64,000 nucleotides of DNA from Streptomyces sp. NBC_00376 (GTDB lineage: Bacteria; Actinomycetota; Actinomycetes; Streptomycetales; Streptomycetaceae): assembly GCF_036077095.1 (NCBI RefSeq), contig NZ_CP107960.1:62001-126000 (forward strand), read 5' to 3'. Under the pieces are notes generated by a model. The model made no database searches, was not told where the DNA came from, and saw nothing but the letters and a program-made list of their open reading frames with translations. Shown here piece after piece: positions 3,378 through 47,740 of this stretch; within the stretch, counting starts at the first letter, position 1, and every line of letters begins with the position of its first letter. The position numbers and the translations under genes are program-made.

Positions 3378-3688
3378 CCCAAGGCTGACAGAGAGGGTTC
3401 GGCCAGCGTAGTTGATGTTGTTTGGAGTGTTTGTTCGTAGGCGATGGGGCTGCGGTGTCCGAGGCGGGAGTGGCGTCGGACGGTGTTGTAGCGGTGGAGC
3501 CAGCGGAAGAGGTCCAGGCGGGCTTCGCGTTCTTCGTTCCAGGCCCTGCGGCCCTGGAGGGTCTCGCGTTTGCAGGTCGCGTTGAACGACTCCGCCAGGG
3601 CGTTATCCGCCGAGCTGCCGATGGCGCTCATGGACTGGGTCACGCCAGCCTGGCGGCAGGCGTTGGCGAAGGCCCGGCTGCAGTACTG
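3378..3688 (-). pseudogene. 3' part of element A orfB, separated by the IS30 insertion
   Basis: The minus strand reads YCSRAFANACRQAGVTQSMS, then SSADNALAESFNATCKRETL with the catalytic Glu, and ends RRHSRLGHRSPIAYEQTLQ. This continues exactly from the HTDHGAQ end of the 5' part at about 5144, so the two were one gene before the IS30 element entered. Confidence 0.85.
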
Positions 3689-5140
3689 GACGGATTCAAC
3701 TGATCGTCGCAACACCTTGATCGGGAGGTGGAGCGATGGGCTCTGTGGAGCGGCACAAGCAGGTTCGTGCGTATCGGGGGTTGGTGCCGTCGCCGGGCAG
3801 GCCGTCGGTGGCCTGGCGTGAGGACAGGGTCAGGTTCTGGACGGTGATCGCTCGGGGTGCCAAGACCGAGGATGCGTGCAGTGCTGCCGGGGTGTCCGGG
3901 CCGGTGGGATTCCGCTGGTTCCGGCACGCTGGCGGCGTGAATCCGTGTCTTCCTGATGATGTGTCCGGGCGCTACCTGTCGTTTCCCGAGCGGGAGGACA
4001 TCGCCGTCTGGCATGCCCAGGGCGCCGGCGTCCGCGAGATCGCCCGCAGGCTCGGACGGGCGCCGTCGACGGTCTCCCGTGAGCTGCGGCGCAATGCCTC
4101 TACCCGGACCTACAAGCTGGACTACCGGGCCTCGACCGCGCAGTGGCACGCTGAACGCCGGGCCCGGCGCCCGAAGACGGCCAAGCTCGTGGACAATCCG
4201 AGGCTGCGAGCCTATATCCAGGCCCGGCTGTCGAGGGACGTCACCGACGCCGGAGGCAACCGTCTGGGCCCGGAGGGCCCGGCCTGGAAGGGGCGCAACA
4301 AGCCGCACCGCGGCGACAGAGGCTGGGTGACAGCATGGAGCCCGGAGCAGATCGCGCGACGCCTGCCGGTCGAGTTCCCCGACGATGAGGACATGCGCAT
4401 CAGTCACGAGGCGATCTACCAGGCGCTCTACGTCGAGGGACGTGGTGCGCTGAAACGCGAGCTGGTGGCCTGCCTGCGCACCGGACGGGCGCTGCGTGTT
4501 CCCCGGGCACGCAGCCGGCAGAAGGCGTGGGCCCACGTCACCGACAAGGTCCTCCTCGGCGAGCGTCCCGCCGAGGCCGAGGACCGCGCCGTTCCCGGGC
4601 ACTGGGAGGGCGACCTCATCATCGGGCTGAAGCGCTCGGCGATCGGGACTCTCGTCGAGCGCACCACCAGGTTCACCATGCTGGTCCACCTGCCGCGCGA
4701 GGAGGGCTACGGTGTGGTCCCGCGCACGAAGAACGGACCCGCTCTGGCCGGATACGGTGCCAGCACGATGAAGAACGCCCTGGCCAGGACGATGACCACA
4801 CTGCCTGAGCAACTCCGGCGGTCTCTCACCTGGGACCGCGGCAAGGAGTTGTCCGCGCACGCCGCCTTCACGGTCGAGACCGGCATCCCTGTCTACTTCG
4901 CTGACCCCCACAGCCCCTGGCAACGCGGGACCAACGAGAACACCAACGGCCTACTGCGTCAGTACTTCCCCAAGGGCACCGACTTGTCCCGCTGGAACAG
5001 CGAAGAGCTCCAGGCCGTCGCGGCGGTCTTCAACAACCGGCCCCGGAAAACACTCGGGTGGCGAACCCCGGCTGAAGTATTCACCAAGCAGCTACGATCG
5101 CTCCCACCAGCCAGCGTTGCGACGACCGATTGAATCCGTC
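3689..5140 (+). mobile_element. Complete IS30-family insertion sequence
   Basis: Inverted ends begin GACGGATTCAA (3689 onward; complement at the right end to 5140) and extend with matches to GTCGTCGCAAC. The element is 1452 bp and flanked by the direct repeat CTG (3686-3688 and 5141-5143), the 3-bp target duplication. The single transposase gene fills it. Exact excision rebuilds the split IS3 orfB, which fixes the boundaries. Confidence 0.9.
3736..5133 (+). CDS. IS30-family transposase
   Basis: A 465-residue protein. It has an N-terminal helix-turn-helix (about residues 75-115: LSFPEREDIAVWHAQGAGVR, then REIARRLGRAPSTVSRELRR) and a central ISHEAIYQALYVEGRG motif. The DDE core is intact: Asp in GHWEGDLIIG, Asp in SLTWDRGKELSAHA and Glu in SPWQRGTNENTNG. 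The ending NNRPRKTLGWRTPAEVF is typical. The extra N-terminal helical segment (about 70 residues) is longer than in the shortest IS30 members. It reads opposite to the IS3 gene it disrupts. Confidence 0.9.
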   Translation: MGSVERHKQVRAYRGLVPSPGRPSVAWREDRVRFWTVIARGAKTEDACSAAGVSGPVGFRWFRHAGGVNPCLPDDVSGRYLSFPEREDIAVWHAQGAGVREIARRLGRAPSTVSRELRRNASTRTYKLDYRASTAQWHAERRARRPKTAKLVDNPRLRAYIQARLSRDVTDAGGNRLGPEGPAWKGRNKPHRGDRGWVTAWSPEQIARRLPVEFPDDEDMRISHEAIYQALYVEGRGALKRELVACLRTGRALRVPRARSRQKAWAHVTDKVLLGERPAEAEDRAVPGHWEGDLIIGLKRSAIGTLVERTTRFTMLVHLPREEGYGVVPRTKNGPALAGYGASTMKNALARTMTTLPEQLRRSLTWDRGKELSAHAAFTVETGIPVYFADPHSPWQRGTNENTNGLLRQYFPKGTDLSRWNSEELQAVAAVFNNRPRKTLGWRTPAEVFTKQLRSLPPASVATTD

Positions 5141-5143
5141 CTG

Positions 5144-5743
5144 GGCCCCGTGATCGGTGTGCATCACGGCGCCGGCGAGGCTGCCGCGGGTCCGCTCGGC
5201 TGCTTTCAGGGCGTCGACGACGAGGTCGGCGCGCATATGGTCGGCGATCGCCCACCCGGCCAGGCGCCGTGAGCAGAGATCGATCACGGTCGCGAGATAG
5301 CGGAACGTCCCGCCGGCCAGCGGCAGGTATGTGATGTCGCCGACGTACTTTCGGTTCACCTCGTCCACGGTGAAGTTACGGCCGATCAGGTCCGGCACCT
5401 TCGCCGCGGCGGGGTCCGGGATGGTGGTGCGATGCTTCCTGCGCAGGCGGAGGCCGGCCAGCCCGATCGCCTGCATGATGCGGGCGACCCGCTCGTGGTT
5501 CACGCGCTCGCCGTCCTCGCGGAGTTCAGCGGTGATCCTGGGGGCGCCGTAGGTGCCGTCCGAGGCCCGGTGGATCACGCGTATCCGGGCGGCGAGCTGG
5601 GCGTCGGCAGCCTGGCGGGCTGCCCGCAGCGGTGCACTCCGGCGCCAGTGGTAGAAGCTCGAGCGGGCGATGCCCAGGATGCGGCACAACCGCTTCACGC
5701 CGTAACGGCGCTGGTGGTCCTCAACGAACTGGCAGCGGTTCAC
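5144..5743 (-). pseudogene. 5' part of element A orfB
   Basis: Starting at GTG 5743, which overlaps the OrfA stop, the protein reads MNRCQFVEDHQRRYGVKRLC, then the HTH_21 region, YVGDITYLPLAGG (first Asp), CSRRLAGWAIADHMRADLV and MHTDHGAQ (second Asp), where the IS30 element interrupts it. Residues and order match the intact orfB at 13348-14250. Confidence 0.85.
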
Positions 5744-6048
5744 CAGCCCGTCTCCGAGGCGAAATAGCGGGCCGCCTTGCGCAGGATCTCCCGTTCCTTC
5801 TTCAGCTCGGCGTTCTCCCGCCTCAAGGCGGCGACCTCGGCCTCCAGAGCCGACGGCGCCACCGGAACCGTCGGCGGCATGGCCGCCCGACGGCCGCGCG
5901 GACGACCGGCTCCGGCCGCCCGGATCCAGTTGCGCAGCGTCTCCGGGTTCACCCCCAGGTCGGCGGCGATCTGCTTGATCGTCGCCTCGGGCCGCGAATC
6001 GTACAGCGCGACCGCGTCCGCCTTGAACTCCGGCGGATAGTGCTTCAT
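5740..6048 (-). CDS. IS3-family transposase OrfA of element A
   Basis: The start is taken at ATG 6048 (MKHYPPEFKADAVALYDSRP). The frame is open a little further but the family starts here. It has a helix-turn-helix (AADLGVNPETLRNWIRAAG), a basic linker, a coiled coil (LRRENAELKKEREILRKAAR) and the ending YFASETGW. The stop overlaps the orfB GTG. OrfA is intact, but its partner is disrupted. Confidence 0.8.
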   Translation of the reverse strand: MKHYPPEFKADAVALYDSRPEATIKQIAADLGVNPETLRNWIRAAGAGRPRGRRAAMPPTVPVAPSALEAEVAALRRENAELKKEREILRKAARYFASETGW

Positions 6049-6121
6049 GACCACGACACGTCCATCTCTCAGATCCTCAAGATCCACTATCTCGAGTGTC
6101 CAAGATCAGGGGTGAAGGCCC

Positions 6122-6345
6122 GCCCCAGAACATCACTCGGATGAGACAGGTTCGATGCGTCTGTAGAACCGTCGAGCTTGGGCTCGTACCACCAGCCCGG
6201 ACCCTCGGGCAGGACCGGGAGGGCTTGGGCCAGTGCCACCAGGGGGATGCAGTCGAGCATGAGGCAGATACCGAATCAGAGGCCCGCGACGGTGCTGCCG
6301 GGGGCGCAGAACGACGGCTTCGCACACCCGTGAGAACCTAGGACG
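6122..6345. other. Gap between IS element A and membrane-protein gene
   Basis: No gene, hairpin or repeat could be supported here. Frames on both strands are open but have arginine/proline-rich composition expected of GC-rich noncoding DNA. It presumably contains the promoter of the gene at 6346. Confidence 0.4.
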
Positions 6346-7536
6346 GTGAAAGCGAAGTGCGCTCCCCTGGGCGATGAGCGGCGCGACCGCGGCCCCGAGC
6401 TGCCGCCGACCCGCAGCGTCCTGATCACTGGCGGCCTGGTGCGCGTGTCGGGCGCAGCGGCCGTGGGCTGCGGGGCGCTGTTCGGTCTGCTTCCCGTCCT
6501 CGCGCTCATCGGCAGACTCGGTCTCCCCGACGACCCGCCAGGTTTCGTGCCGGTGTTCGGCGGCCCGCTCATCGCTGCGGCGCTGGGCATCGTCGTCTTC
6601 CTGATCGTGCTCGGCTATGCCCTGACCTTCCATCAGCTGGCGCTCGCGGGCATGTACGCACCGGCTGAGGACTCGTCGGCGCTGAGGAATGCGGTCGAGG
6701 TGCGTGGCCGCGTCACACGCACGCCGTTCTTCCCGGCGGTCGTGACGAGCATCGTCATCGGCTTCCTGCTCCTGGCAACGGCCGGCATCCTGCTCGCCGC
6801 GTCCGCCTGGCCGACGGTGGCGATCGCCCTGCTCCTCCCGGGCGTGCTCTGCGTCCCGGCCGTACTCGCTCTGATCGCCGCCGACCGACGGTGGAGCCGT
6901 ACCGCGCCTGATCGCCTTCCCACACGGGCCCTGGGCGAACAGGGCCCCGCTCAGCTCCTCCTCGGCGACGCCGACACGGAACTGCGGCAGCAGGTCAAGG
7001 CCCGAGAGCGCGCCGAGGCCACCGAACTCGACCATGCGACCACCGCCGTGCTCGTGACCCTCGCCATCGCGAGCCTCGCCATGATGAGCCCCTCACTCTC
7101 ACCCACGGCTGCCATCTGGAGACAGGTGCAGCTGGTCGGCGTCGGGCTCGGCGTCCTGTGCCTGCTCGTACTGCTCGGCATCAGGGTGCTCCGGATCCGG
7201 CGACTGCGACGCACTCTTGTACGGGTGCGCCGCGGGGGCGCGGACGTGTCCGGAATCGACCGCGCGCACGCGATCACCGCGACGACGACCCAGGCGTCCG
7301 AGCTGCACGCGGCGACAACCCTCTGGTCGCTGCTCGGCGCCGCAGCGCTCGGCACTGTGGTCCACCGGACCGCGGATGTCGCGCCGGTCCTGATCGTCGC
7401 CGGCATCTGGGCGCTCGGCTTCGCCGTGCTCATCGCGCTGTCGATGCGTTCGGACACTGCCGCCCCAAAGCTCCGGGAGGAGTTCGGCTACCGGCTCCCG
7501 ACCAAGACCTCCGGAAACGACAACACCTGGCACTGA
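6346..7536 (+). CDS. Multi-pass membrane protein of unknown function
   Basis: A GTG start gives 396 residues with about eight hydrophobic segments in two blocks. The first block is about residues 25-180 (for example GALFGLLPVLALIGRLG, AALGIVVFLIVLGYALTF). The second is about 230-370 (VLVTLAIASLAMM, VGVGLGVLCLLVLLGIRVL, APVLIVAGIWALGFAVLIAL). A charged loop with a short coiled-coil-like stretch (RQQVKARERAEATELDHAT) separates them. No catalytic motif is recognisable. Codon use looks normal, so it is probably a real host gene trapped between mobile relics. Confidence 0.65.
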   Translation: MKAKCAPLGDERRDRGPELPPTRSVLITGGLVRVSGAAAVGCGALFGLLPVLALIGRLGLPDDPPGFVPVFGGPLIAAALGIVVFLIVLGYALTFHQLALAGMYAPAEDSSALRNAVEVRGRVTRTPFFPAVVTSIVIGFLLLATAGILLAASAWPTVAIALLLPGVLCVPAVLALIAADRRWSRTAPDRLPTRALGEQGPAQLLLGDADTELRQQVKARERAEATELDHATTAVLVTLAIASLAMMSPSLSPTAAIWRQVQLVGVGLGVLCLLVLLGIRVLRIRRLRRTLVRVRRGGADVSGIDRAHAITATTTQASELHAATTLWSLLGAAALGTVVHRTADVAPVLIVAGIWALGFAVLIALSMRSDTAAPKLREEFGYRLPTKTSGNDNTWH

Positions 7537-7680
7537 GATGCCGTCGCCAGCCGACGAACAGCCAGAACAGCCCTCAATTCACGCTCGTGACTCGGCATCG
7601 GACCGTGGTCCTGCAGCATCCCGAAGCCGCCCTTGTTCAGTGGGGTACGCGGGGCGCAACTCGCGGGGCGGGCTTCCCTC

Positions 7681-7971
7681 GTGGAATGCGGGGCGTTCTC
7701 GGCACGGCTCGGCACACGCGAACCCTTCAGAGAACTGATCACGGGAGTAGAGGCCGCACTCGATCTCCGGGCGCACCGGGCCGGGACGCTTTCCCGTCAC
7801 TCCGCCTATCTCCGCCAGCGGACCGTGGGAAGAATCGGGAGCCTGACCCGACTCATCCGGCAAGCCGCGATCACCGCGATCCTCGACGGCACCGAACGCA
7901 TCACCAAGGCCACACTCGAAGCCATCCGCCTCGACCACCTCGCCGAAACCCACCACCGCCGACGGGTTCGG
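7681..7971 (+). pseudogene. C-terminal relic of a TniB-like transposition ATPase
   Basis: The frame contains REPFRELITGVEAALDLRAH, then RHSAYLRQRTVGRIGSLTRL and TAILDGTERITKATLEAIRL. This resembles the C-terminal lid domain of TniB/TnsC-type AAA+ proteins of actinobacterial Tn5053/Tn7-like elements. The Walker A/B part is missing upstream, and the frame then runs into unrelated sequence. No tniA or tniQ partner is visible. Confidence 0.45.
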
Positions 7972-8255
7972 CGCGGATCTCGGTATCGTCGCGCAGCGCC
8001 TCCCACGGGCTACGGCCCTCGGGGGGTTGTCCAGGTTTCTTGTCGGGGGTGTGTCCGGGCGATCTGTCAGATTATCCCGGAAAGCGTTGGTGGTCCCGGC
8101 ACGCGGCCATCTCCGGGTATAAGAGGGTCCACGAAGCAAGTCTTGGGGACCAATGTGGATATTCTGCATGCGGTTGGAACGTGATGGCCAGCCGGATCTG
8201 ACAGCATCAGCCGCACGGCGTGCCTCGCGTCGAAGCGATCGAGTCGTCTTGCGGG
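7972..8255. other. Noncoding stretch between relics
   Basis: No coding potential could be supported. A TCTGTCAGATTAT stretch near 8062 and GGATCTGACAGCATC near 8195 share an inverted CTGTCAGA/TCTGACAG core and might be decayed transposon ends, but this is weak. Confidence 0.25.
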
Positions 8256-8731
8256 TCAACCGTGGTCTTCCCACTCCGCTTTGCAGAACCGCGCCTCGCT
8301 GACCACGGCGTCCCCGGCTCTGGTGGCCCGTACGTACATGTTGAGACCGTCCGGCCCGAGATCTCCGCCGCAGCCGATGATCAGGCCTATCTCGCGTTCT
8401 TCGAGGTGCTTGATCAGGGCTGCGTCGGCGGCTGAGACCGTCATGCCGATCAGCCGGATGCCGTCGAAGTCGATCTGCGGGCCGGTGCGTCCGTGCAGGG
8501 TGACGGCGCCCAGGGTGGGGGGCGTGCCAAAACCGCGGTCACACCCCAGTCGCTGTAACACCCCCAGCCAGCCCCGCCGTCCAGGCCAGTCGAGACGTAG
8601 GCGGTCGCCCCGTCCAGAGCCGACGCCACCTGGTCGGGGTTCATCCCGAACCGCAACGGCCCCACCCCCACCAACGGCTCAAGCACCCACTGCGCGCGCA
8701 CGTCCTCGGGCTTCCTGTTCCACCAAGGCAT
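8256..8731 (-). pseudogene. Conserved-looking hypothetical gene with one frameshift
   Basis: From ATG 8731 the protein reads MPWWNRKPEDVRAQWVLEPL, then RFGMNPDQVASALDGATAYV and GCYSDWGVTAV. The sensible frame then switches near 8530-8545 and continues GAVTLHGRTGPQIDFDGIRL, KHLEEREIGLIIGCGGDLGP and ARFCKAEWEDHG to the stop at 8256. The two halves read as one roughly 158-residue cytoplasmic protein of unknown function. The switch lies beside a G/C homopolymer run, so it is either a real mutation or a sequencing error. Confidence 0.5.
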
Positions 8732-8979
8732 CCCAACCCCCACGATTGCTCCAAACACCCCCGGCACTACCTGCCGGTGATCTTGTGGAACCGTATGCGC
8801 AACCTCTGACATCGCGGTCGTCAACAACCTCTCCGACGGCGCACGTTCTGTCAGTACTCGCCAGACCGCGGATCGCCAACGTGACGCGGGCTGCGTACCG
8901 AGTTGTCCTGTCGAAGTGCATCTGTCAGATGACAAGCCGCTGACCTGGTGTGGTGCCATGTTGATTGAGAACGCTGGCC

Positions 8980-9021
8980 CTGGCTCTGTTCACCAGAACG
9001 GGTTCTGGTGAACAGAGCCAG
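8980..9021. repeat. 42-bp near-perfect palindrome
   Basis: The 20-base arm CTGGCTCTGTTCACCAGAAC (8980-8999) is exactly complementary to 9002-9021, with only GG between. It lies 130 bp upstream of the secreted-protein gene at 9153 and is not followed by a T run. It could be a transcription terminator, a cruciform or protein-binding site, or a transposon end. Confidence 0.8.
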
Positions 9022-9152
9022 ATCCGGCCTTCGATCGGAATCGGCGTCCGGCGGGATCGGTCCCGTCCCCGGTGCGGTCCGGCACCCTCTTTCGAGGGAA
9101 AGATCACCGCTCTGTCCGCACCGTCCTGGATGGTGCCGACAGACTTGCGATC

Positions 9153-9596
9153 ATGAAGATCTGGAAGAGGGCAGCCGTGGGCATGGCGGCATGGTCCCTC
9201 GTGGCTGCGCCGAGCCTGCTCGCTTCGACGCAGGTGCAGGCGACGAATCCGGCCGCGGCTCACACCGCCTCTCGAACCTCTCTGCTGGACGTGTTCGTAC
9301 CGCCCGTGACCTCTCCCACCGCGGAGTCGGTCTGGACGGCCGGCCAGACGGTTGAGGTCACCTGGGACACTGCCGACCCGCCACAGCACATCACCAACCC
9401 CAAGGGCGCGATCTACTTGAGGAAGGGCGACAGGACCGGCCCCATGCTTGACGAGGGCTTCGACATCCTGAAGGGGAGACAGGAAGTGGTCGTGCCGGAC
9501 GTTCCTCCCGGGAACGACTACAGGATCGTCCTCTTCGGCGACTCCGGTAACTTCTCCGCCCCCTTCACGATCACGGGAGGGCCGACCGATTCCTAA
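9153..9596 (+). CDS. Small secreted protein with a Kre9/Knh1-like domain
   Basis: The 147-residue product starts at ATG 9153; an upstream in-frame extension lacks a signal peptide. Residues 1-30 are a Sec signal (MKIWKRAAVGMAAWSLVAAP ending near ASTQVQA). The mature part, about residues 50-145, has VTSPTAESVWTAGQTVEVTW, a beta-sandwich opening typical of Ser/Thr-rich Kre9/Knh1 family domains. It continues through IYLRKGDRTG, VVVPDVPPGNDYRIVLFGDS and GNFSAPFTI. Probably extracellular. Its function is unknown. Confidence 0.7.
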   Translation: MKIWKRAAVGMAAWSLVAAPSLLASTQVQATNPAAAHTASRTSLLDVFVPPVTSPTAESVWTAGQTVEVTWDTADPPQHITNPKGAIYLRKGDRTGPMLDEGFDILKGRQEVVVPDVPPGNDYRIVLFGDSGNFSAPFTITGGPTDS

Positions 9597-9850
9597 CGGT
9601 GCGGCCCGGCCGTCCAGGCGACAGCCCGGCGCCTCGGCGGCCGAACGTCGCGCTGGCCGGTGGCCGTGCTCCTGATGCCGGGCGACAGCGGCGTTCAGCG
9701 CCCGTTCCTGATCGGGGTGCAGTTCCCCATGCACGGACGAACCCTGACGGCACGTCGGTCTCGAACCGCTCCAGTTCCTCCGCCGACGCGGGCGCCCAGG
9801 GCTCAGGCAGGTCCCGTACGACTGCCCGCGCCGCCGACCCGAGCCTCCCG
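9571..9850 (-). pseudogene. Possible N-terminal relic of another tyrosine recombinase
   Basis: The minus strand reads VVRDLPEPWAPASAEELERF then ETDVPSGFVRAWG. This resembles the start of actinobacterial integrases, but the rest is lost. With the empty-looking sequence 9850-10228 it makes up a 630-bp gap between two secreted-protein genes; nothing else could be supported there. Confidence 0.35.
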
Positions 9851-10228
9851 CAACGACATCCGCACCGTCGCCGAACAGAGATCAACTGGCTCACAAGCCA
9901 CCATGCTCAGCTCACCGACCAGAGCGCTCAGCCCCGCCAGGTGAAGTGCTCACTCGCCAGATGAAGTACCGAGTCACAACTGGTGACAGTCGAATACGCG
10001 AGCCCACCAGTATCAAACCCGGCATCGTGGCCCGTACAAGATTGCCAGCACCCGGCACCATGGTCGGCTACTCCCTCCTGTCATCATGACCACGGCGCAG
10101 GAGCGGTGGCGCCGTGATCCGCATGAAGGCATCTACGCCATTTGCCTTCCGCCGGTGCTGCGCCCCCTCGCTCCAATGTGCGCAAGCATGCCGGGCGCAA
10201 GACGCGCTCGCCTGAGACAGGAGCCGTA

Positions 10229-13045: not shown

Positions 13046-13351
13046 ATGAAGCACTATCCCGCCGATTTCAAGGCGGACGCGGTCACGTTGTACCGGTCGA
13101 GGCCGGGAGCGACAATCAAGTCGGTCGCCGCTGATCTCGGGGTGAACACCGAGACGCTGAGGAACTGGATCCGAGCCGCGGACGGGCGCCGGCCCGGCGC
13201 TCACTCCGCACCGCCGACCGCTGCCCGAACCGAAGGCAACGACGTTCAGGCGGAGCTGACCGCAGCACGCAAGAGGATCCGCGAACTCGAGGAAGAACGC
13301 GACATCCTCCGTAAGGCGGCCCGGTATTTCGCGACGGAGACGCGCTGGTGA
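13046..13351 (+). CDS. IS3-family transposase OrfA (element C)
   Basis: Starting at ATG 13046 (MKHYPADFKADAVTLYRSRP). It has a helix-turn-helix (AADLGVNTETLRNWIRAAD), a variable linker and a coiled coil (ARKRIRELEEERDILRKAAR), ending YFATETRW. The TGA overlaps the orfB GTG. Residues differ from the element A copy mainly in the linker. Confidence 0.85.
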   Translation: MKHYPADFKADAVTLYRSRPGATIKSVAADLGVNTETLRNWIRAADGRRPGAHSAPPTAARTEGNDVQAELTAARKRIRELEEERDILRKAARYFATETRW

Positions 13352-14250
13352 ACCGCTACCAGTTCGTTGAGGATCACCAGCGCCGTCACGGCGTGAAGCG
13401 GCTCTGCGACATCCTCGGCCTGGCCCGCTCGAGCTTCTACTACTGGCGCCGCACCGCAGCCGCAAGAGCGGCCCGGCAGGCCGTCGAGGCCGGGCTCGCG
13501 GCCCGAATACGCAAGGTCCACCAGGACTCCAACGGGACCTACGGAGTTCCGAGGATCACCGCCGAGCTCCGTGACGGGGACGGCCCGGCTATCAACCACA
13601 AACGCGTCGCGAGGATCATGCGGACCATCGGGCTCGAGGGAGTCCGGTTGCGCCGCCGGCACCGCACCACCGTCGCGGACCAGGCCGCGGCGAAGGCGCC
13701 AGATCTGATCGGGCGTGACTTCACCGCGGCTGTGGTGAACACGAAGTACGTCGGGGACATCACATACCTGCCGGTCAGCGGCGCGAAGCCGCTCTACCTC
13801 GCAACCGTCATCGACCTCGCCTCACGCCGGCTGGCCGGGTGGGCGATCGCCGACCACATGCGGACCGAGCTCGTCACCGACGCCCTGGCGGCCGCCGAGC
13901 GGACCCGCGGGAGCCTGGCAGGAGCGATCACGCACACCGACCACGGCTCGCAATATACGAGTAGGGCCTTCGCCGAGATCTGCAGGTCAGCAGGGGTCCA
14001 GCAGAGTATGGGCGCGATCGGGTCCAGCGCGGACAACGCCGCCGCGGAAAGCTTCAACGCAGCCTTCAAGAGAGAAACACTCAAAGGCCGAAAGGCCTGG
14101 CCGAGCGAGCGCGAGGCCAGGCTCGACGCCTTCCGCCGGCTGACCCGATACAACACCCGACGCAGGCACTCCCGCCTCGGCCAAAGATCCCCGATCGCCA
14201 ACGAGAACGGCCTCCAACCCGCAGCAACTACCCTGGCCCAAGCCGCATAG
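13348..14250 (+). CDS. IS3-family transposase OrfB (element C)
   Basis: A 300-residue DDE transposase with all expected parts: FVEDHQRRHGVKRLCDILGL, then RSSFYYWRR, DSNGTYGVPRITAELRD, TKYVGDITYLP (Asp), THTDHGSQYTSRAF (Asp), SSADNAAAESFNAAFKRETL (Glu) and RRRHSRLGQRSPIANE. No stops or shifts. The DHGSQY motif here is the intact form of the site where IS30 elements entered the sibling copies. Confidence 0.9.
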   Translation: MNRYQFVEDHQRRHGVKRLCDILGLARSSFYYWRRTAAARAARQAVEAGLAARIRKVHQDSNGTYGVPRITAELRDGDGPAINHKRVARIMRTIGLEGVRLRRRHRTTVADQAAAKAPDLIGRDFTAAVVNTKYVGDITYLPVSGAKPLYLATVIDLASRRLAGWAIADHMRTELVTDALAAAERTRGSLAGAITHTDHGSQYTSRAFAEICRSAGVQQSMGAIGSSADNAAAESFNAAFKRETLKGRKAWPSEREARLDAFRRLTRYNTRRRHSRLGQRSPIANENGLQPAATTLAQAA

Positions 14251-39133: not shown

Positions 39134-39135
39134 GA

Positions 39136-40002
39136 TCACTCCTTGACAGCGCCGGCGAGCAGGCCGGAGACGAAGTGGCGTTGAAGGGCCAGGAAGACGA
39201 TGATCATGGGAATGGCGGCGACGGCCGTTCCGGTGAGGATGGCCCCGTAGTCGGTGTCGTCGACACCCTGCAGTGAGGCGAGTGCGACGGGAATGGTGAG
39301 GGAGGCATTGTCGCGCAGCACGATCAGGGGCCAGATGAAGTCGTTCCACTGGTAGAGGAACAGGAAGATGCCCAGTGCTGCCAGGGCGGGCCTCATCGGC
39401 GGCAGGACGACCCGCAGGAACAGACGCAGTTCGCCGCAGCCGTCCATGCGGCCGGAGTCGAGCAGTTCGTCGGGCAGCGCAGCCATCGACTGGCGCATGA
39501 GGAAGATACCGAACGGCAGCGCCAGATTGGGCATGATCACTGCCTGATACGTGTTGAGCCAGTGCAGCTCGGCCATCATCTTGAACAGCGGAACCAGTGT
39601 GACCTGAGTCGGGATGACCAGCCCCAGCATCAGCATGCCGAAGAGTGCGTCACGGCCCTTGAAGCGGTACTTGGTGAAGGCGTAGCCGGCCAGGGTGCAG
39701 ACGGCTCCTGCGCAGACTGTGTAGATGACCGCGATGAGCAGAGAGTTGAGCACGACCTGCCCGAAGGATGCGGTCTCCTGCAGGCTGGAGAGGTTCTTGC
39801 CGAGGTCCCCGCCGGGAAGCAGCGGCGGCGTGGAGTCGAAGATCTCGTCAGTGCTGTGGGTGCTGGCGATGACGAGCCAGTAGAAGGGAAGGAGCACGCC
39901 GGCGAGCACGATGGCCAGCCCCGAGGTCAGCAGGATGCCGCGGCCTGGGCGGTGCAGGCCGGTGCGTGGTGCGCGGGCGGCGCCACGTGCGGGGGTCGTC
40001 AT
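39136..40002 (-). CDS. ABC sugar importer permease (MalG-type), LacI-linked system
   Basis: 288 residues, six helices. A DELLDSGRMDGCGELRLFLR loop replaces the canonical EAA start, with DSGRMDG for EAAxxDG. ATG 40002 overlaps the partner permease stop (ATGA). Confidence 0.88.
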   Translation of the reverse strand: MTTPARGAARAPRTGLHRPGRGILLTSGLAIVLAGVLLPFYWLVIASTHSTDEIFDSTPPLLPGGDLGKNLSSLQETASFGQVVLNSLLIAVIYTVCAGAVCTLAGYAFTKYRFKGRDALFGMLMLGLVIPTQVTLVPLFKMMAELHWLNTYQAVIMPNLALPFGIFLMRQSMAALPDELLDSGRMDGCGELRLFLRVVLPPMRPALAALGIFLFLYQWNDFIWPLIVLRDNASLTIPVALASLQGVDDTDYGAILTGTAVAAIPMIIVFLALQRHFVSGLLAGAVKE

Positions 40003-40925
40003 GATTTGTCTCCCAGGACCCGGAACTGGATCAGGCCGAGGACTCCGATCAGCACCGCAAGGACGTAGGCGATGGCCGACGCGTAGCCGAAGTCGAAGTA
40101 CGTGAAGGCGTTCTGGTACAGGTACACGCCGATGGTCAGCGTGGCGTTGTCGGGGCCGCCGCGGGTGAGGATGTACGGCTCGTCGAAGATCTGCAGGGTG
40201 CCGATGGTGGAGAGCACCGTGGCGAGGAGGATCGCCGGACGCAGTCCCGGAAGGGTCACGTGACGGAAGGACTGCCAGGCTCCGGCTCCGTCGACCGAGG
40301 CGGCGTCGTACAGCTCCTTGGGAATGGTCTGCAGGCGGGCCAGCAGAATCACCGCGTTGTAGCCGGTGTAGTGCCAGGTCAGTGCCAGACCGAGGGAGAT
40401 CTTTGCCCACAGCGGATCAGTCAGCCACGGTACTTCGCCGATTCCGACGAGCGAGAGCAGCCAGTTGAGCAGCCCGTACTTCTCGTTGAGCAGGACGGAG
40501 AAGATGACACCGTACGCCACGAGGCCGGTGACCATCGGCATGAAGAATCCCAGTCGGAACACCGAGCGTGCCCGCAGGAATGCCGAGTTGAACGCGACGG
40601 CCAGGCCGGTGGCGAGCGCCAGCATGATCGGCACCTGGACCGCCAGGATGACTGCCGTGTTCTTCAGTGCCGTCCAGAACAGCGGGTCGTCCAGTAGCCG
40701 CTTGTAGTTGTCCGCTCCGACGAAGGTGTCGACGCCGTCGACCGTCCTGTGGAGGCTGAGAACGAACGACCAGCCGATCGGGTAGAGCTTGAAGGCGGCG
40801 AACAGCAGCACGGCGGGCAGGACGAAGGCGTAGGGCGCGAGACGGCGCGCGCTCAAGCGCGGTGGTCGGGAGTCGCGCACACCCGCCGTTCGCACCGTAC
40901 GGGTCGGGGAAGTGACAACGCTCAT
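39999..40925 (-). CDS. ABC sugar importer permease (MalF-type), LacI-linked system
   Basis: 308 residues with six helices and the EAA-type loop KELYDAASVDGAGAWQSFRH. ATG 40925 overlaps the binding-protein stop (ATGA). No ATPase gene is adjacent. Confidence 0.88.
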   Translation of the reverse strand: MSVVTSPTRTVRTAGVRDSRPPRLSARRLAPYAFVLPAVLLFAAFKLYPIGWSFVLSLHRTVDGVDTFVGADNYKRLLDDPLFWTALKNTAVILAVQVPIMLALATGLAVAFNSAFLRARSVFRLGFFMPMVTGLVAYGVIFSVLLNEKYGLLNWLLSLVGIGEVPWLTDPLWAKISLGLALTWHYTGYNAVILLARLQTIPKELYDAASVDGAGAWQSFRHVTLPGLRPAILLATVLSTIGTLQIFDEPYILTRGGPDNATLTIGVYLYQNAFTYFDFGYASAIAYVLAVLIGVLGLIQFRVLGDKS

Positions 40926-42271
40926 CGGGCGACCTTGCGTCCGGTCTGGGAAGCGAGCTGTTCCGCCGCCGCATGCAGCACCTTGGCCGGGTCTGCGCCC
41001 TTGAGCAGCACCTTCGTCTGGGCGTCGGTGACCACCTTGAGCGCTCGGGCATAGTCGGAGGTGTAATTGAACGCCGGCGAGGGCGCCTTGAGGGCACCGA
41101 AGAAAATCTCACCCTTCTTCTGGCCGCCGAAGAACTTCGACGGCTCGTGGAAGACCGGATCGTCGTACGCCTTCAACAGGGCCGGGGCGATCCCCTTGCC
41201 CTGGTAGATCTTGACCTGCGACTCGGGCCGCGTCAGCGCGAACTCCACGAAGTTCCAGGCCGCGGCCTGGTGCTTGCTGGTACCGGCAACGGCCAGGTGC
41301 GTGGAGTTCACGGTGGCGGCGGTGGCCCCGCCGCGGCGTACGGACGGGGGCAGACGCACACCCCACTTGCCCGCCTGGTCGGGGACCGTCTCCTCGATGA
41401 TGCCGCCGAACCAGGTCGGCCACGGCAGGACCGCCGCCGTTCCCTTCTTGATCGAGCTGATCAACGCGTTCCAGCCGCCGGAGATGTCGCTGACGAGTCC
41501 GGCGTCGTTCATCTTCTTGATGATCGACATGGCACGCACGGCCTCGGCGGAATCGAGGGTGATGTCGCCGTCAGTATTGAAATAGAAGCCGCCCTGGAGC
41601 TGGAGCAGCAGCTGGAAGAAGTTCGCCGAGTCCTGCTGCGAGGCGGGCTTGTCGATCCCCAGAAGGTACTTGCCCGTCTTCTTCTTGATCTCCTTGCCGG
41701 CCTCGATCGCGTCGTCCCAGGTGTCGAGCGCTCCGACATCGACACCGGCTTCCTCAAAGACATCGGCACGGTAGTAGAACCCGGCCGAGTTCGCCTCCCA
41801 CGGAAGCGCGTTCACCTGTTCGCCCTTGGGCGAGACCGTCTCCCACAGGCCCTTCGCGAAGGCATCCCGGTACTTGTGGGCTCCCAGCTTGCCGAGATCG
41901 GCAAGCTGGCCCGGGAAGCGGTCCACGTATCCGGGCAGGTAGTCGACGCCTATGTGCAGTACATCCGCGAGGCCCGCCCCTCCGGCTGCCATGCCCGTGG
42001 TGATCTTGTCCCAGATCGCCGGGTTCCCGATGTCCTGCACGGTCACCTTGATGTCCGGGTACTTCTTGTTGAACGCCGGAACCAGCGCCCGCAGCTCCGC
42101 CGCCGGACCCTGCCAGCTCCACACCGTGATGGAGCCCTTGGTGGCGTCACCGACATCGCCGCCCTGAGCGCCCGTGCTGCCGGTGCCGGAGCAGGCGGTC
42201 AGGCCGCCGAGGCCTGCTCCTGCGGCAAGCGCGCCGCCCACTCCAAGAACTCTGCGACGACTCATGTCCAT
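40922..42271 (-). CDS. ABC sugar importer solute-binding lipoprotein, LacI-linked system
   Basis: 449 residues. The signal has twin arginines (MSRRRVLGVGGALAAGAGLG) and a lipobox LTACS, suggesting Tat-exported lipoprotein maturation. Solute-binding fold: SITVWSWQGPAAELRALVPA, FNKKYPDIKVTVQDIG, VNALPWEANSAGFYYRADVF and NALISSIKKGTAAVLPWPTW. ATG 42271 or 42265 (6 bp apart). Probably binds a galactoside, given the glycosidase downstream. Confidence 0.88.
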   Translation of the reverse strand: MDMSRRRVLGVGGALAAGAGLGGLTACSGTGSTGAQGGDVGDATKGSITVWSWQGPAAELRALVPAFNKKYPDIKVTVQDIGNPAIWDKITTGMAAGGAGLADVLHIGVDYLPGYVDRFPGQLADLGKLGAHKYRDAFAKGLWETVSPKGEQVNALPWEANSAGFYYRADVFEEAGVDVGALDTWDDAIEAGKEIKKKTGKYLLGIDKPASQQDSANFFQLLLQLQGGFYFNTDGDITLDSAEAVRAMSIIKKMNDAGLVSDISGGWNALISSIKKGTAAVLPWPTWFGGIIEETVPDQAGKWGVRLPPSVRRGGATAATVNSTHLAVAGTSKHQAAAWNFVEFALTRPESQVKIYQGKGIAPALLKAYDDPVFHEPSKFFGGQKKGEIFFGALKAPSPAFNYTSDYARALKVVTDAQTKVLLKGADPAKVLHAAAEQLASQTGRKVAR

Positions 42272-42478
42272 GAGATGACCACCTCTGCATGCGGCTCGGA
42301 CATCGACCGAACTCCGGGTCGACTGCAGGGAAGTTAGCAACCAGTCAGACTCACTTGCAATGTTTGATTGAAAACTTTCTGATCGATTCCGCATCGCAGG
42401 CTTGCAGGACTATTGCAACCCGTCGAACGCCGCTGCTAGCTTTCGGCCACTCACTCGAGCCACGCACTGGAGTACGCC
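42272..42478. promoter_or_regulatory. Divergent promoter region between importer operon and secreted glycosidase
   Basis: An AT-rich stretch (about 42350-42395) contains TTGCAAT at 42355-42361 and its inverted partner ATTGCAA at 42412-42418, 50 bp apart, plus GATTGAAAACTTTCTGATCG. These are candidate sites for the LacI regulator at 36354, serving both directions. The assignment is by position only. Confidence 0.4.
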
Positions 42479-44434
42479 ATGAGGCATCGCCGTCCTGCCC
42501 GCCTGGCAGTCGTAGCCACACTCGCCACACTCGCCCCGCTCACACCACTGACCCTGGGCAGTCCGGCCATCGCAGCCACCTCAGCGCTGGCCCTCAGCAA
42601 TCCCGGCTTCGAGGACGGCACCACGGGCTGGACGTTCACTTCCGGCACCGGAGTCGCCACCAACGCACCGCACGGTGGCGCAAAGCTCGCGTACCTGGAT
42701 GCCGGAAGCGGCAACAAGGTGGCGCAGACCATCACGGCGTCCGGTGACGGTACGTACGACTTCTCCGCCTGGATCGCCACCGGCGGCCCGGGCGGAAGGT
42801 TCGTCGCCCAGGTCAACGGCGCGCAGGCCGGTGCGGTGGATCTGCCCAGCCGGTCCGGCTACGCCCGGTACACGATCAGCCGGGTGCCCCTGAAAAGCGG
42901 CGACCAGCTGGAGCTCGCCTTCGAATCCGGCAGCAGCTGGGTCAACGCCGACGACATCATGGTCTCCCCCGCGGCCCCGGTCGACCCGGAGATCTCGTCC
43001 TCCGACCCGAGAATCGTCGAGATGTTCAACTGGTCGAAGCGCAAGGCCAACAGCTGGGTCCAGATGCCCGGCACGACCGGTCCGCTGAACGTCGACGAGG
43101 GCAACCGGTCCGGAACCGGCACCGGGACGTACGGCCCGTCCTACTGGGCCGGGTACGCGCATCGCAGCGCCTACTACTCACGCGACATGGCCCACCAGCT
43201 CGCCGGTGCCTCCGTCCTCGGACTGAACGACGCGAACAAAGCCATGCTGCGTGCCTTTGCCGGCTCCGCGACGTCCGAGCACAAGTACTACCCCGTATGG
43301 GCCGTCAACTTCGACAACAAGACATACCTCTCGATCGACTACCGGAGCCCGACCTCCTTCGTCCGAGAGGTCCCGGCCACGTTCGAGCTGGTGGAGAAAG
43401 CCGAGCACGCCTACCGCTGGAGCGGCGACAGCGCCTACGTCCATGACGGCACGCTCTGGGACTTCTACAAGCACGCGACCAAGGACTTCGTCGAACTCCA
43501 CGACGCCAACAAGCCGAACGGTGTCGCCGAAGGCACCGGCAAGGGCATCTTCGCGGGCGCCGCCAGCTACAACGAGGTCGGAGAGGAGCACCTGGCCGAG
43601 TCCGGGGACTCCATCGGATCCCAGTACCAGGCGTACCGGGCGATGTCCGACCTGGCCGCCGCCAAGGGCGACAAAACCCTGTCCAAGAAGTTCCAGCAGA
43701 AGGCCGACAGCCTCAAGGCCTACTTCAACGACACCTGGAGCGGCTCCGGCTCAGGGCACGACATGGTCCGCGGCTACACCACCGACGGCAAGGCACTCAC
43801 CGGCTGGGGCAAGGAGAACAGCTGGTTCATGCCCATGAAGCAGATCGTCAATCCGGGGGCGCGCGCCGACGCCTACCTCGACTATGTCGACGAGCAGGCC
43901 AGCGGCAGCGGCAAGCCGTCCAACATCGAGGCGATCAGCTACCTGCCGGACACCTTCTTCGCCTACGAGCACAACGACACGGCCTGGAAGTGGATGCAGT
44001 ACGTCTACGACAAGCGGAACGACCAGCACCCGGTGTCCAAGCAAGGCCCCAACGGCGACTACCCAGAAGTCTCCTACACCCTGCTGAGCCAGACCGTCGA
44101 GGGCCTCATGGGCGTGCAGCCCAACGCCCCGGGGCGCGCCCTGAGCACCCAGTCCCGCATGCCCGCCGGAATGGGCTGGCTGCAGATCAAGGACATCAAG
44201 ATCGGCGGCAACACCTTCACCCTGCGTCATGACGGTGCCACCAAGTCGACCCTGACCAACGCCACGGGTTCGGCCCGCTACAAGTGGGAGGCCCGCTTCC
44301 CCGGCAGCCACTCGACGATCAAGGTCAACGGCGTCCCCCAAAGAGCCAAGACGAAGACCGTCAACGGAAAGACCTGCACCTACGCAAAGGTGTCCGTCGC
44401 ACCCGGACAGAAGGTCACTGTGCAAGTCTCGTAA
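42479..44434 (+). CDS. Secreted glycoside hydrolase-like protein with N-terminal carbohydrate-binding-like domain
   Basis: 651 residues. The signal peptide (MRHRRPARLAVVATLATLAP ending SPAIAA) gives a mature N-terminus near residue 34. Residues about 38-162 form a jelly-roll-like module (LSNPGFEDGTTGWTFTSGTG, YDFSAWIATGGPGGRF, WVNADDIMVSP). Residues about 170-560 are helix-rich with YAHRSAYYSRDMAHQLAGAS, ASYNEVGEEHLAESGDSIGS, GKENSWFMPMKQI and EAISYLPDTFFAYEH, resembling six-hairpin glycosidases. A beta tail ends the protein. Exact GH family not recognised. It probably releases oligosaccharides for the divergent importer. Confidence 0.65.
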   Translation: MRHRRPARLAVVATLATLAPLTPLTLGSPAIAATSALALSNPGFEDGTTGWTFTSGTGVATNAPHGGAKLAYLDAGSGNKVAQTITASGDGTYDFSAWIATGGPGGRFVAQVNGAQAGAVDLPSRSGYARYTISRVPLKSGDQLELAFESGSSWVNADDIMVSPAAPVDPEISSSDPRIVEMFNWSKRKANSWVQMPGTTGPLNVDEGNRSGTGTGTYGPSYWAGYAHRSAYYSRDMAHQLAGASVLGLNDANKAMLRAFAGSATSEHKYYPVWAVNFDNKTYLSIDYRSPTSFVREVPATFELVEKAEHAYRWSGDSAYVHDGTLWDFYKHATKDFVELHDANKPNGVAEGTGKGIFAGAASYNEVGEEHLAESGDSIGSQYQAYRAMSDLAAAKGDKTLSKKFQQKADSLKAYFNDTWSGSGSGHDMVRGYTTDGKALTGWGKENSWFMPMKQIVNPGARADAYLDYVDEQASGSGKPSNIEAISYLPDTFFAYEHNDTAWKWMQYVYDKRNDQHPVSKQGPNGDYPEVSYTLLSQTVEGLMGVQPNAPGRALSTQSRMPAGMGWLQIKDIKIGGNTFTLRHDGATKSTLTNATGSARYKWEARFPGSHSTIKVNGVPQRAKTKTVNGKTCTYAKVSVAPGQKVTVQVS

Positions 44435-44858
44435 CGAAAAGTGTCATGAATTAGTACTGCAGCGGCGCTTGAGGTGACGAGGTCGCAGTCCATGGGCTGC
44501 GACCTCGTACACCCGGACGATCCGGAGCACCGACGAGCGCGCGGGTGTCTGGTGCTGGCCGATCGCGCCGAGCGGCTGGGCAGGGAGCTCGCCGAGTTCG
44601 ATGTCGAGGTGGCCCGGCTGGAGGCCGCGGAGGTGATGTTCGGCCAGTACGCCGAGGCGATGGACGGCGGCAGGCGGGACGATCCGGTGGTGGAGCCCGA
44701 TCCGGCGGGATGCTGCTCGTGCCGCACCGCGTCGAGGGGATGAGCCAAGAGGTGCTGCCCGCCGACTATCAGCGGATTGTGCAGGTGTTCGCGGGTGCGT
44801 CCGACAGGCCGGTCAAGACCCGGGAGATGTGCGAGGCGCTGGGGCTGGGCTCGCTGCC
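44435..44858 (+). pseudogene. Relic of a conserved coiled-coil/winged-helix protein
   Basis: One frame reads ADRAERLGRELAEFDVEVAR then LEAAEVMFGQYAEAMDGG. After a shift near 44705 the next reads MLLVPHRVEGMSQEVLPADY, then QRIVQVFAGASDRPVKTREM and CEALGLG, where it is cut at about 44858 by the dehydrogenase sequence. It resembles small actinobacterial proteins with a helical region and a winged-helix-like C-terminus. Function unknown. Confidence 0.4.
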
Positions 44859-45902
44859 CTGCGTGCCACCCTCATGTACGGCGCCGGCGACGTCCGGATC
44901 GAGAACGTCCCGGACCCCGTCCTCAAACAGCCCACCGACGTACTGGTCCGCATCACTGGATCCTGCATCTGCGGCAGCGACCTGCACCCCTACGCCTCGA
45001 TGAAGGCCGAGGACGGCCCGGCCCGGATGGGGTACGAGTTCATCGCCATCGTCGAAGCCACCGACTCTGAGGTGACCACCGTCAAGAAGGGCGACCTGGT
45101 CGTCGCCCCCTTCGCGATCTCAGACAACACCTGCGAGTTCTGCCGCGAGGGCCTGCACACCTTCTGCGCCCACCCACAGGCCAACTTCTGGGACGGCGAG
45201 CCGGAAGAGGGCGGCCAGGCCGAAGCGATCCGCGTCCCGCTCGCCGACGGCACCCTCGTCAAGCTCCCCGTCGCGCCGGACTCGGCCCTCCTCCCGTCCC
45301 TGCTGACCCTCTCGGACGTCTTCGGCACCGCCTACCACGCCGCACTCATGGGCGGGGTCAACGAGCGCACCCGCGTCACCGTGATCGGCGACGGCGCCGT
45401 CGGCCCGCTGGCCGTGCTCTCGGCCAAGTGGCTCGGCGCCAACCAGATCATGCTCATGGGACGTCACCAGGCACGCACCGAACCTCGGCCGGGAATTCGG
45501 GGCCACCGACGTCGTCTCCGCCGCGGAGAGAATGGCATCGAAGCGGTCCGCGAGCTGACCGGCGGGCACGGCACACACGTGGTCCTCGAAGCAGTCGGCC
45601 ACATGTCCGCCTACGAACGGGCCCTCGGAGTCGTCCTCCCCGGCGGCGTCATCAGCCGCGTCGGCGTACCGCAGTACGAAGAGGCACCGGTCGGCTTCGG
45701 CAGCCTCTTCGGCCCCAACATCCGCCTGGCCGGCGGGCCCGCACCGGTCCGTGCCTACATCGAGGAACTGATGCCCGACATCCTCAACGGCACCATCGAG
45801 CCCGGGAAGGTCTTCGACGCCACCCCCGACCTCGACGGCATCCCGGCCGGCTACCGGGTCATGGCTGACCGCAAGGCCCTCAAGGTCCTCGTCAAGCCCT
45901 GA
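44859..45902 (+). pseudogene. Zinc-dependent alcohol dehydrogenase, 5' end replaced and carrying two compensating frameshifts
   Basis: MDR-family protein: RATLMYGAGDVRIENVPDPV, CICGSDLHPYASMKA (catalytic zinc Cys), GYEFIAIVEA, then a structural-zinc-type loop EFCREGLHTFCAH, VTVIGDGAVGPLAVLSAKWL and GTHVVLEAVGHMSAYERAL. The usual initiator codon is replaced by CTG in the fused relic; ATG 44874 would delete the first strand. Between about 45480 and 45540 the frame is shifted: the native LGREFGATDVVSAAE is read as EPRPGIRGHRRRLRRGE, and the frame then returns. The Rossmann domain is therefore probably damaged. Confidence 0.65.
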
Positions 45903-45916
45903 CCCCAGGAACACCA

Positions 45917-45954
45917 CGGGCCGGAAGGGGGCGGCCACGTCTCCCTCCGGCCCG
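45917..45954 (+). terminator. Hairpin after the alcohol dehydrogenase gene
   Basis: CGGGCCGGA (45917-45925) pairs with TCCGGCCCG (45946-45954), and the stem extends inward with one mismatch. It lies 15 bp after the stop. The following 150 bp to the IS3 end hold no supportable gene. Confidence 0.6.
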
Positions 45955-46111
45955 TCGGCCGAAGCGCTGGACCTCGCTCACCTTCTCCTCGGACGCCCCG
46001 GGTAGGACCCGGAAGGGCGGAGCTGGGTGCCGTCTTTCAGCAGGGCGAGACGCACGGCGGCCAGGCTGGTTCTCTCCCGATCGGAGATGGCCTGCAGGGA
46101 CTGAGGTTGAT

Positions 46112-47740
46112 CCCCGGGAGTGGACACCGGGTTTCATGCAACGAGTGACAGCGTAGGTGACGTGATCAGTTGCTGTTCGAACTCGGCTGGTGTGAGGTGG
46201 CCGAGCGCGGAATGCCGACGGCGCCGGTTGTAGTACGACAGCCGGCGAAACAGCTCGAGCCGGGTCTGTGCCTTGGAGGTCCAGCTCCTCCCGTGGAGCT
46301 ACTCGCGCTTGAGGCCCTGGAAGAACGACTCGGCGAGAGCATTGTCATAGCTCGAGCCGACCCGGCCCATGCTGCGGCGGATGCCGTGCCGGCTGCAGAC
46401 TTCGGTGAACGCGGCCGCGCTGTACTGACCGGATTCAACTGGTCGTTGCAACACCGGTTCACTGGAACAACAGTAGCTGCTCGTTGAATGCCTCGGCTGG
46501 TGTCTTCCAGCCGAGTGTCTTGCGGGGTCTGGTGTTGAGAGCGTGGGCGACGGCATCGATCTCCTCGGCGGACCACCTTGAGAGATCGGTGCCATTCGGG
46601 AAGTACTGGCGCAGGAACCCGTTGGTGTTTTCGTTCGTGCCGCGCTGCCACGGACTACGAGGATCGGCGAAGAACACTGGAATGCCAGTCTCGACTCTGA
46701 ACTGCGCATGAGCCGACATCTCCTTCCCCCGATCCCATGTCAGCGACCGTGCCAACTGCTCGGGCAGTGTCGACATCGTGTTGGCGAGTGCGTTCTTCAT
46801 CGTGATCGCCCCATAGCCGGCCAGCGCAGGACCAGGTCAGACTTCCACTGCGCGACCGATGCCCGATAGTCGGGCTTCCCGCCCCTGGTGGCCGCGTTGC
46901 GTCGCAGCTCACGCGAAATCTTCCCCGGATTACGACCGACCTCTCGAGCGATCTCGCGCACGCCCTTGCCTTGGGCCTTGAGGAGCGCGATCTCCTCTCG
47001 TTCACGAAACGACAGGTACCTGTCTGAAGGCGGCTTCGGATCGAACGGTCGCATGCCGCCACACTGTCGGTACCAGCGCGTGGCCACCGCCGGCGCCACG
47101 CCGACGATACCGGCGGCTTCCTCGGCGAGAAGACCCTTGGCGATCTCGGCCCAGAACGCCACTTCGACGTGCCGCTGGTACTTCGGATGTCCCGGGGACC
47201 TCAACTTCGGACGCACCGCTCGATCCGCTGCCTGCTGACGACGCACCCTCCAACACCTCCGTTGACGAGGTGTTGCGACGACCGGTTGAATCCGCCCTGA
47301 GTGCCTCTGTCGGTGTGGAAGACGACGCCGTGGACCTGGCCGCCGCGGGCGGCAACGGCCATCTCGATCGCGTCGGTGACCAGGGAGGTGCGCATGTGGT
47401 CGGCAATCGACCAGCCCACCACCTTCCTCGAGCAGATGTCGATGACCGTAGCGAGGTAGAGCCACGTCGCACCGACGGCTATAGGTGATGTCGCCGCACC
47501 ACCTGGTGTTCAGCGTGTGCGGTGAAGTCGCGCATCACCAGGTCCGGAGCAGGCGGCGCGGTCCTGTCCGCGATCGTCGTCCGCTTCTTCTTCCGCAGGT
47601 GACGGCCGACGATGTGGTTGATCCGCATCAGCCAGGCCACACGCTTGCGGTTGATCCTCCGCCCCCTCGCACGCAGCTCAGCATGGACGCGTGGGGCTCC
47701 GTAGACGCCATGGTGTTCGGCGTGGATGGCGCGGATGGCG
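46112..47740 (-). mobile_element. IS3-family element D remnant interrupted by a defective IS30 copy
   Basis: The minus strand carries orfB from about RAIHAEHHGVYGAPRVHAEL (47740) through WCGDITYI-like sequence after a shift near 47500, SIADHMRTSLVTDAIEMAVA and VVFHTDRGTQ. Then comes IS30 (46428-47296), then YSAAAFTEVCSRHGIRRSMG, SSYDNALAESFFQGLKRE, a TAG nonsense codon, and RRLSYYNRRRRHSALGHLTP. The 3' end resembles an IS3 terminus (GATCCCCGGGAGTGGACACC, 46112-46131). OrfA and the 5' end of orfB are replaced by ISAzo13-like sequence. Confidence 0.75.
46428..47296 (-). mobile_element. Internally deleted IS30-family element
   Basis: Ends related to the intact copy (GGATTCAAC...GTCGTTGCAAC on the left, complement on the right) and a CTG direct repeat (46425-46427 and 47297-47299) define an 869-bp element. 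The transposase N-terminal part (minus frame LSFREREEIALLKAQGKGVR, then EIAREVGRNPGKISRELRR) runs into an out-of-frame C-terminal part (ITMKNALANTMSTLPEQLAR, TWDRGKEMSAHA, RGTNENTNGFLRQYF). The junction near 46830 removes roughly 200 codons including the first catalytic Asp, so it is dead but may be mobilised by the intact copy. Confidence 0.85.

Follow-up and report, generated by a model that had tools for sequence, protein, structure and literature searches.

A clade of IS30-family insertion sequences (IS), two members of which lie in a 64,000-nucleotide stretch of the Streptomyces sp. NBC_00376 genome (contig NZ_CP107960.1, positions 62,001 to 126,000; hereafter the window, numbered from its first letter), very probably recognizes the DNA of the catalytic motif of IS3-family orfB transposase genes and inserts after the CAR codon of that motif. 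This is the best explanation of the evidence as a whole. In the proposed mechanism, transposases of about 465 residues would recognize, as DNA, the orfB stretch for the catalytic second-aspartate motif HxDxGxQ(Y/F), with the target consensus CAY-N3-GAY-N3-GG-N4-CAR^TWY (^ marks the point of insertion). Insertion after the CAR codon duplicates those 3 bp and occurs in either orientation, the commoner being the one in which transposase and orfB run the same way. The target would be read by the transposase itself, probably with its N-terminal tandem helix-turn-helix (HTH) region, and IS3 would be the main target since little else bears the motif.

Element 1 (3689..5140, plus strand, 1452 bp) has the ends GAC-GGATTCAA and TTGAATCC-GTC, with GGATTCAACCGGTCGTCGCAACACC-like terminal inverted repeats at both. 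Its transposase gene (3736..5133, plus strand, 465 residues, Pfam HTH_38 at 77-120) leaves 47 bp of noncoding DNA before it and 7 bp after it, and matches the NCBIfam IS30 transposase profile NF033563 with 245.8 bits against a cut-off of 80. Element 2 (46428..47296, minus strand, 869 bp) belongs to the same clade but is deleted and decayed, with two TGA codons inside its matched stretch (321-464). The first-pass annotation had spoken of two IS30 copies; both are indeed IS30, but they are two clade members and not copies of one, with 73% DNA identity over 405 bp and 76.5% protein identity in the best segment.

Both elements sit directly after the CAG codon of an HTDxGxQ motif in a CAG^TAC context, as that annotation had observed and as the coordinates and the sequence confirm. 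On the coding strand, the site of element 1 is CAC ACC GAT CAC GGG GCC CAG^TAC TGC (HTDHGAQ^YC) and that of element 2 is CAC ACC GAC AGA GGC ACT CAG^TAC AGC (HTDRGTQ^YS). The duplicated CTG (CAG on the orfB strand) described earlier is found on both sides of element 1 (3686..3688 and 5141..5143) and of element 2 (46425..46427 and 47297..47299). Element 1 is oriented opposite to its orfB, and element 2 runs in the same direction as its own.

The orfB gene struck by element 1 is divided into a 5′ part (5141..5743, minus strand), ending in HTDHGAQ, and a 3′ part (3347..3688, minus strand), beginning with QYCSRAFA and carrying rve_3. The 5′ part scores 202.5 bits with the IS3 profile NF033516 (cut-off 160), the match extending to position 286 of the profile's 369, and exceeds 99% DNA identity to the uninterrupted loci L215 and L216; the 3′ part does so to L215 and L226. 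The 5′ part of the host of element 2 (47297..48117, minus strand) ends in HTDRGTQ, is not one open frame, contains HTH_21 in 47479-48117, and has 90% DNA identity to L225 across the roughly 440 bp that precede the site. Its 3′ part (46099..46427, minus strand, outer limit approximate) begins with QYSAAAFT and, across the 326-329 bp that follow the site, is 90-91% identical in DNA to L219 and L225. DNA identity between the two host genes is 61% in the part preceding the site and 57.5% in the part following it; of the 120 bp around the site, 67 match. A segmental duplication of the pair is thereby ruled out, in agreement with the earlier statement that the markedly different hosts do not reflect one duplicated insertion. 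By their sequences, the two elements are different clade members, which arrived at the same codon of two unlike IS3 hosts. The catalytic residues of DDE transposases include a second D and an E; because the insertion splits orfB between these two residues, the struck IS3 copy would be lost.

The 10.04-Mb genome of the strain, in three contigs, offers occupied and empty sites side by side. The 13 IS30 matches listed include element 2 of the window and several weaker ones. Element 1 is present five times: four copies are full-length, of which one contains an internal TAG, and the fifth (L005) is partial, with one usable junction. At a junction, H(S/T)DxGx(Q/L) is found for all five and for element 2. 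The fragment L008 shows the QY side of the site with IS3 homology, while L010 has no usable junction. Empty sites that align up to the breakpoint from both sides are found in the same genome for each full-length copy: L215 for L001; L210 and L222 for L002; L209, L220, and L224 (about 85% identical) for L003; and these last three together with L202 for L004. L003 and L004 lie in opposite orientations in related IS3 copies. The pattern CAYNNNGAYNNNGGNNNNCARTWY has 26 unoccupied matches in this genome versus one for the reversed pattern. An IS3-like orfB alignment covers, or comes within 30 nt of, 25 of these 26 sites, and the remaining one (L221) falls within a gene for a short-chain dehydrogenase/reductase (SDR) oxidoreductase. 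Among 19 orfB open frames at unoccupied sites, NF033516 is the best NCBIfam profile for 18; the fragment L218 has no match. One such site, CACACCGACCACGGCTCGCAATAT (13933..13956, plus strand; L202), lies in the window itself, in an uninterrupted IS3 orfB (13348-14250) that scores 288.6 bits with NF033516. Saturation is not general, as near-identical uninterrupted copies of the IS3 struck by element 1 (L215 and L216) persist.

A tabulation of the flanks of relatives, proposed beforehand in the first-pass annotation, extends the observation well past this genome. Relatives were gathered by transposase similarity alone from 150 genomes of the genus, 297 of the family, and 394 of the class, from the best 80 loci of a scan with one genome per species, and from six added regions. 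From 171 loci, four without a transposase match of at least 55% identity (L006, L011, L012, and L013), eight without a usable junction, and the flank duplicates (12/167) were dropped, leaving 147 unique insertions for which a junction could be read. Exactly 21 nt outside the element, in codon frame, 93/147 insertions show the strict motif H[STANG]D.G. Homology to IS3 orfB, tested with 25 orfB queries from the strain's own genome and alignments reaching within 30 bp of the junction, is found at 110/147, and 107 of these 110 also have the motif or the out-motif [QEN][YF]. Motif, out-motif, or homology is present at 120/147; however, the figure to rely on is 110, because the out-motif is a weak test alone, as illustrated by L043, which passes yet resembles a non-IS3 site.

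The insertion falls at the same codon at 178/182 junctions with orfB homology and within one codon at 180/182. The 76 insertions among the best 80 loci of the species scan give the strict motif at 45 and IS3 homology at 52. The 3-bp repeats are equal at 87 of the 118 loci with two junctions. Ten host 5′ pieces hand-picked from diverse loci, the window included, all match NF033516 best and not IS481, and six exceed the whole-protein cut-off of that profile although they are cut short. Four clade members from outside the sample (one on a Deinococcus plasmid and three on contigs of a viral collection) all occupy the site, one of them (L233) as judged from one readable junction. Neither random sites among relatives nor extended flanks common to the window pair, the two outcomes that the annotation had named as refuting, were observed, and its claim that an IS30 group targets a conserved transposase motif is supported both in the strain's genome and across several phyla. 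Targeting of the IS3 orfB codon by the clade is well supported, every computational test applied to it being in its favor, and a reach far beyond the window, with a widespread clade inserted mostly at one codon of IS3 orfB, is confirmed within the sequences surveyed.

Such constancy bears on the alternative that insertion is random and that copies in useful genes were lost while those in dispensable IS3 genes were kept. IS3 genes can indeed be dispensed with, as this alternative supposes, and are often located where IS elements are dense. However, neutral survival predicts a spread along the roughly 900 bp of orfB, not a single codon, and survivor bias of this kind is extremely improbable. Another IS30 group of the same class, detected through L006 (45% identity to the window protein), shows IS3 homology at 0/55 junctions (29 loci). 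When windows are slid 1-300 nt outward along the same clade flanks, the motif occurs in 3/157,344 versus 94/265 at the junctions. At 9 of 69 non-clade loci with flanks, an IS3 orfB lies within 1 kb: in six the orfB alignment continues past the motif unbroken, in one a C-terminal fragment lies about 300 bp away, and in two (L232 and L242) the alignment stops before the motif, so that the site is not judgeable.

A second alternative is that a few insertions were multiplied as IS3::IS30 nests that moved as a unit or were duplicated. The flank duplicates of the census fit this idea, as does genome G505, in which three copies of one nest share an orientation and diverge at the IS3 ends. In one of these (L162), an AAG repeat surrounds the nest-bearing IS3, while the other two are without matching repeats, and movement of this nest by IS3 is possible from its flanks. 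However, 66 distinct 24-nt sequences are found among the 67 motif sites verified by target-site duplication (TSD), the window hosts are only about 60% identical, and the same IS3 has been struck in opposite orientations, so that copying is very unlikely to account for the pattern. One IS3 holds the element in both orientations, with equal 3-bp repeats each, in G149 (L166 versus L028 and L034) and in G692 (L144 versus L160, with a two-base difference between their short arms at the junction). Long-arm searches find full-length IS3 copies occupied at 3/3 in G149, 3/3 in G505, and 2/2 in G692, the other matches being short and partial; these genomes were chosen for their shared nests, with 40 first-look candidates scored per genome, so that the occupancy is not a rate. 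Six elements (L027, L047, L054, L066, L090, and L117) have mismatched flanks, such as two like halves of orfB, which suggests recombination between copies.

How the site is read can be approached through the 18 TSD-verified insertions outside IS3. Thirteen of these score above their own surroundings at p<0.05 and five at p<0.01 (Fisher p 3e-14). Since non-IS3 insertions tend to resemble the motif, the element reads DNA, IS3 being where that DNA mostly occurs. Another possibility is that a short core such as CAG^TA is all that is recognized and that IS3 is struck through its abundance. The six core bases alone are enriched at 9/18 non-IS3 sites (p<0.05; Fisher 7e-8), and in G552, where copies of the other IS30 group lie outside IS3, their junctions likewise carry CAG. 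Nonetheless, a sequence this short abounds in every genome, and still 110/147 insertions lie in IS3 orfB, nearly all at one codon, and the eight bases 8-21 nt upstream, scored without the core, are likewise enriched at 9/18 sites (p<0.05; Fisher 6e-7), making recognition of the core only most improbable.

Targeting by a guide RNA or by homology, as in IS110/IS1111 elements or group II introns, has in its favor that both kinds reach specific sites, as described in the available part of PMC11187229, and that one group II intron resides in an IS, as described in that of PMC4238363. However, the 47 + 7 bp of noncoding DNA leave little space for a guide (no RNA family search was made), the ends are inverted repeats flanked by 3-bp repeats, and the non-IS3 sites are only partly motif-like; such a mechanism is hardly credible for this clade.

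In the reading preferred here, in which the transposase recognizes the orfB motif DNA, orientation is biased but free. Of 92 one-sided cases, 71 have the motif running into the left end of the element and 21 into the right end (p 1.6e-7). A translational fusion of orfB and transposase was considered as the cause of this bias and rejected, as 2/70 same-orientation loci are in frame and one is open. The transposase frame in fact avoids the orfB frame at loci with the motif into the left end, which may be a simple consequence of conserved spacing within the element. A target hairpin, as in the sister group, was likewise rejected for the clade, with a stem of at least 7 bp at 4/118 two-junction loci. 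The first HTH of IS30 has a role in target choice. Two N-terminal helix triplets (about 28-64 and 83-121) form the better part of a low-confidence structure model of the transposase, and the first of these may be what reads the target. Among solved structures, none was matched by the clade profile.

Several observations weigh against target recognition as proposed. Neither motif nor IS3 homology is found at 27/147 insertions, and the 3-bp repeats are unequal at 31/118 two-junction loci, including L002 (CTG, CAG) and L004 (TTG, CTG) of the strain's own genome, where 26 full-motif sites carry no insertion. Some census loci are draft contig ends. The score used for non-IS3 sites is built on 14 key bases derived from IS3 sites, 5/18 of these sites lack motif resemblance at p<0.05, and bases contacted by the protein are inseparable from bases simply conserved in IS3. 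The structure model is poor, with a mean predicted local distance difference test (pLDDT) of 55 and a predicted template modeling score (pTM) of 0.29. Lastly, 7 of the 37 clade rows in the transposase tree, including the Halomonas row and the two myxobacterial ones, have no IS3 label.

In that tree of 72 transposases, the clade is recovered with support 100/99 and an IS3 label on 30/37 rows. The labeled rows come from Actinomycetota, Pseudomonadota, Gemmatimonadota, and Nitrospirota; Deinococcota was placed by a separate check. The other IS30 group has a different kind of target. Its loci L172-L176, L186-L188, L191, L192, L194, L195, L198, and L200 lie between inverted-repeat arms that are often terminator-like, and an exact stem of at least 7 bp spans the insertion at 14/26 readable loci versus 8% of mismatched flank pairs, although five of these 14 come as copies from a single genome (G107). 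More distantly related IS30 elements (36-38% identical; L232, L242, L243, L247, L249, L250, and L253) are found directly upstream of an IS3-type orfB, the homology of which begins at about residue 28-54. One of them, L232, bears the label IS30 in the annotation of a Citrobacter plasmid. This adjacency may represent one or a few inherited arrangements.

What the clade would gain is a dispensable and widespread place to land; the IS3 copy would be lost as a consequence that is perhaps selected and perhaps not. A dispensable, common, and conserved landing site and the removal of a competitor are equally economical as the advantage. That the clade gains from killing IS3 is conceivable, and the ecological reading in which it preys on IS3 is plausible. 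A bolder proposal, offered tentatively and judged somewhat short of probable, is that of an IS-hunting clade whose one DDE transposase would have become adapted to recognize the DNA encoding the catalytic heart of a rival transposon family. IS3 could then escape only via synonymous change, every full-length IS3 copy could be filled, the clade would act as a natural IS3 suppressor in several phyla, and damaged IS3 copies, if mobilized in trans, might carry it onward. The interest of the system lies in a one-gene transposon with codon-sharp target selection, directed at targets that are themselves mobile and, as a class, conserved across phyla. It makes antagonism between transposons, including escape by synonymous change, testable with genome data, and the sister IS30 groups with other target classes provide a natural comparison set for target choice by IS30 transposases.

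Two further features of the window may be mentioned. On the minus strand at 1911-3319, a further IS3-family transposase adjoins the nest formed by element 1 and its host; 1911-3152 scores 166 bits with NF033516 (cut-off 160), and 2936-3319 weakly matches the start of that profile. At 58674-60827 lies a gene resembling glycoside hydrolase family 36 (GH36) alpha-galactosidases (Melibiase, 348 bits).

The clade resembles the IS30 family (NF033563) in its transposase profile, inverted-repeat ends, 3-bp duplication, and HTH N-terminus, and differs in being directed at an asymmetric motif in the coding sequence of another IS family. The target of Escherichia coli IS30 is palindromic. Target specificity is a known property of IS30 and was reportedly treated by Olasz in 1998. 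No report of IS30 targeting of IS3 orfB was found in open-access titles and the beginnings of abstracts, a scope that excludes subscription papers and ISfinder, where prior knowledge is possible. A 68%-identical relative is labeled “transposase for insertion sequence element IS1086” in a plasmid record, a likeness by annotation only; IS1086 inserted in or near cnr genes under zinc selection, according to the accessible text of PMC4803752. The available portion of PMC2516522 describes ISLxc3, an IS30-family element of Leifsonia xyli, as 1,511 bp long with a 26-bp inverted repeat, outer non-complementary CTT/GCC triplets, and an NTG duplication at two copies, and its authors state there that a conserved target site was not found for ISLxc3 and ISLxx5. 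Similar outer triplets occur in the present clade, and the likeness to ISLxc3/ISLxx5 is one of description only.

Other elements share the strategy but not the machinery. The features of IS110/IS1111 seekRNA elements, a long noncoding region and a DEDD transposase, are absent from the clade element, with its 47 + 7 bp of noncoding DNA and IS30 profile. IS elements that insert into repetitive extragenic palindromic (REP) sequences likewise target repeated DNA with sequence specificity; however, their targets are extragenic palindromes rather than a coding motif (PMC1525189, in the part available). Mobile elements that target mobile elements are already known. The group II intron RmInt1, found in ISRm2011-2, is a mobile element inside an IS and is said to limit IS spread, as far as the accessible part of PMC4238363 relates; it is RNA-based and self-splicing, whereas the IS30 clade consists of DNA elements that show no sign of splicing and leave the gene split. 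The res-site hunters of the Tn5053/Tn402 group, in the portion of PMC7765201 available, likewise prefer a site in other transposons and plasmids with a preferred orientation. In contrast to the clade element, with its single IS30 transposase gene and 3-bp repeats, they carry TniABQ, generate 5-bp repeats, use the resolvase of the target, and insert at a res site and not at a transposase codon.

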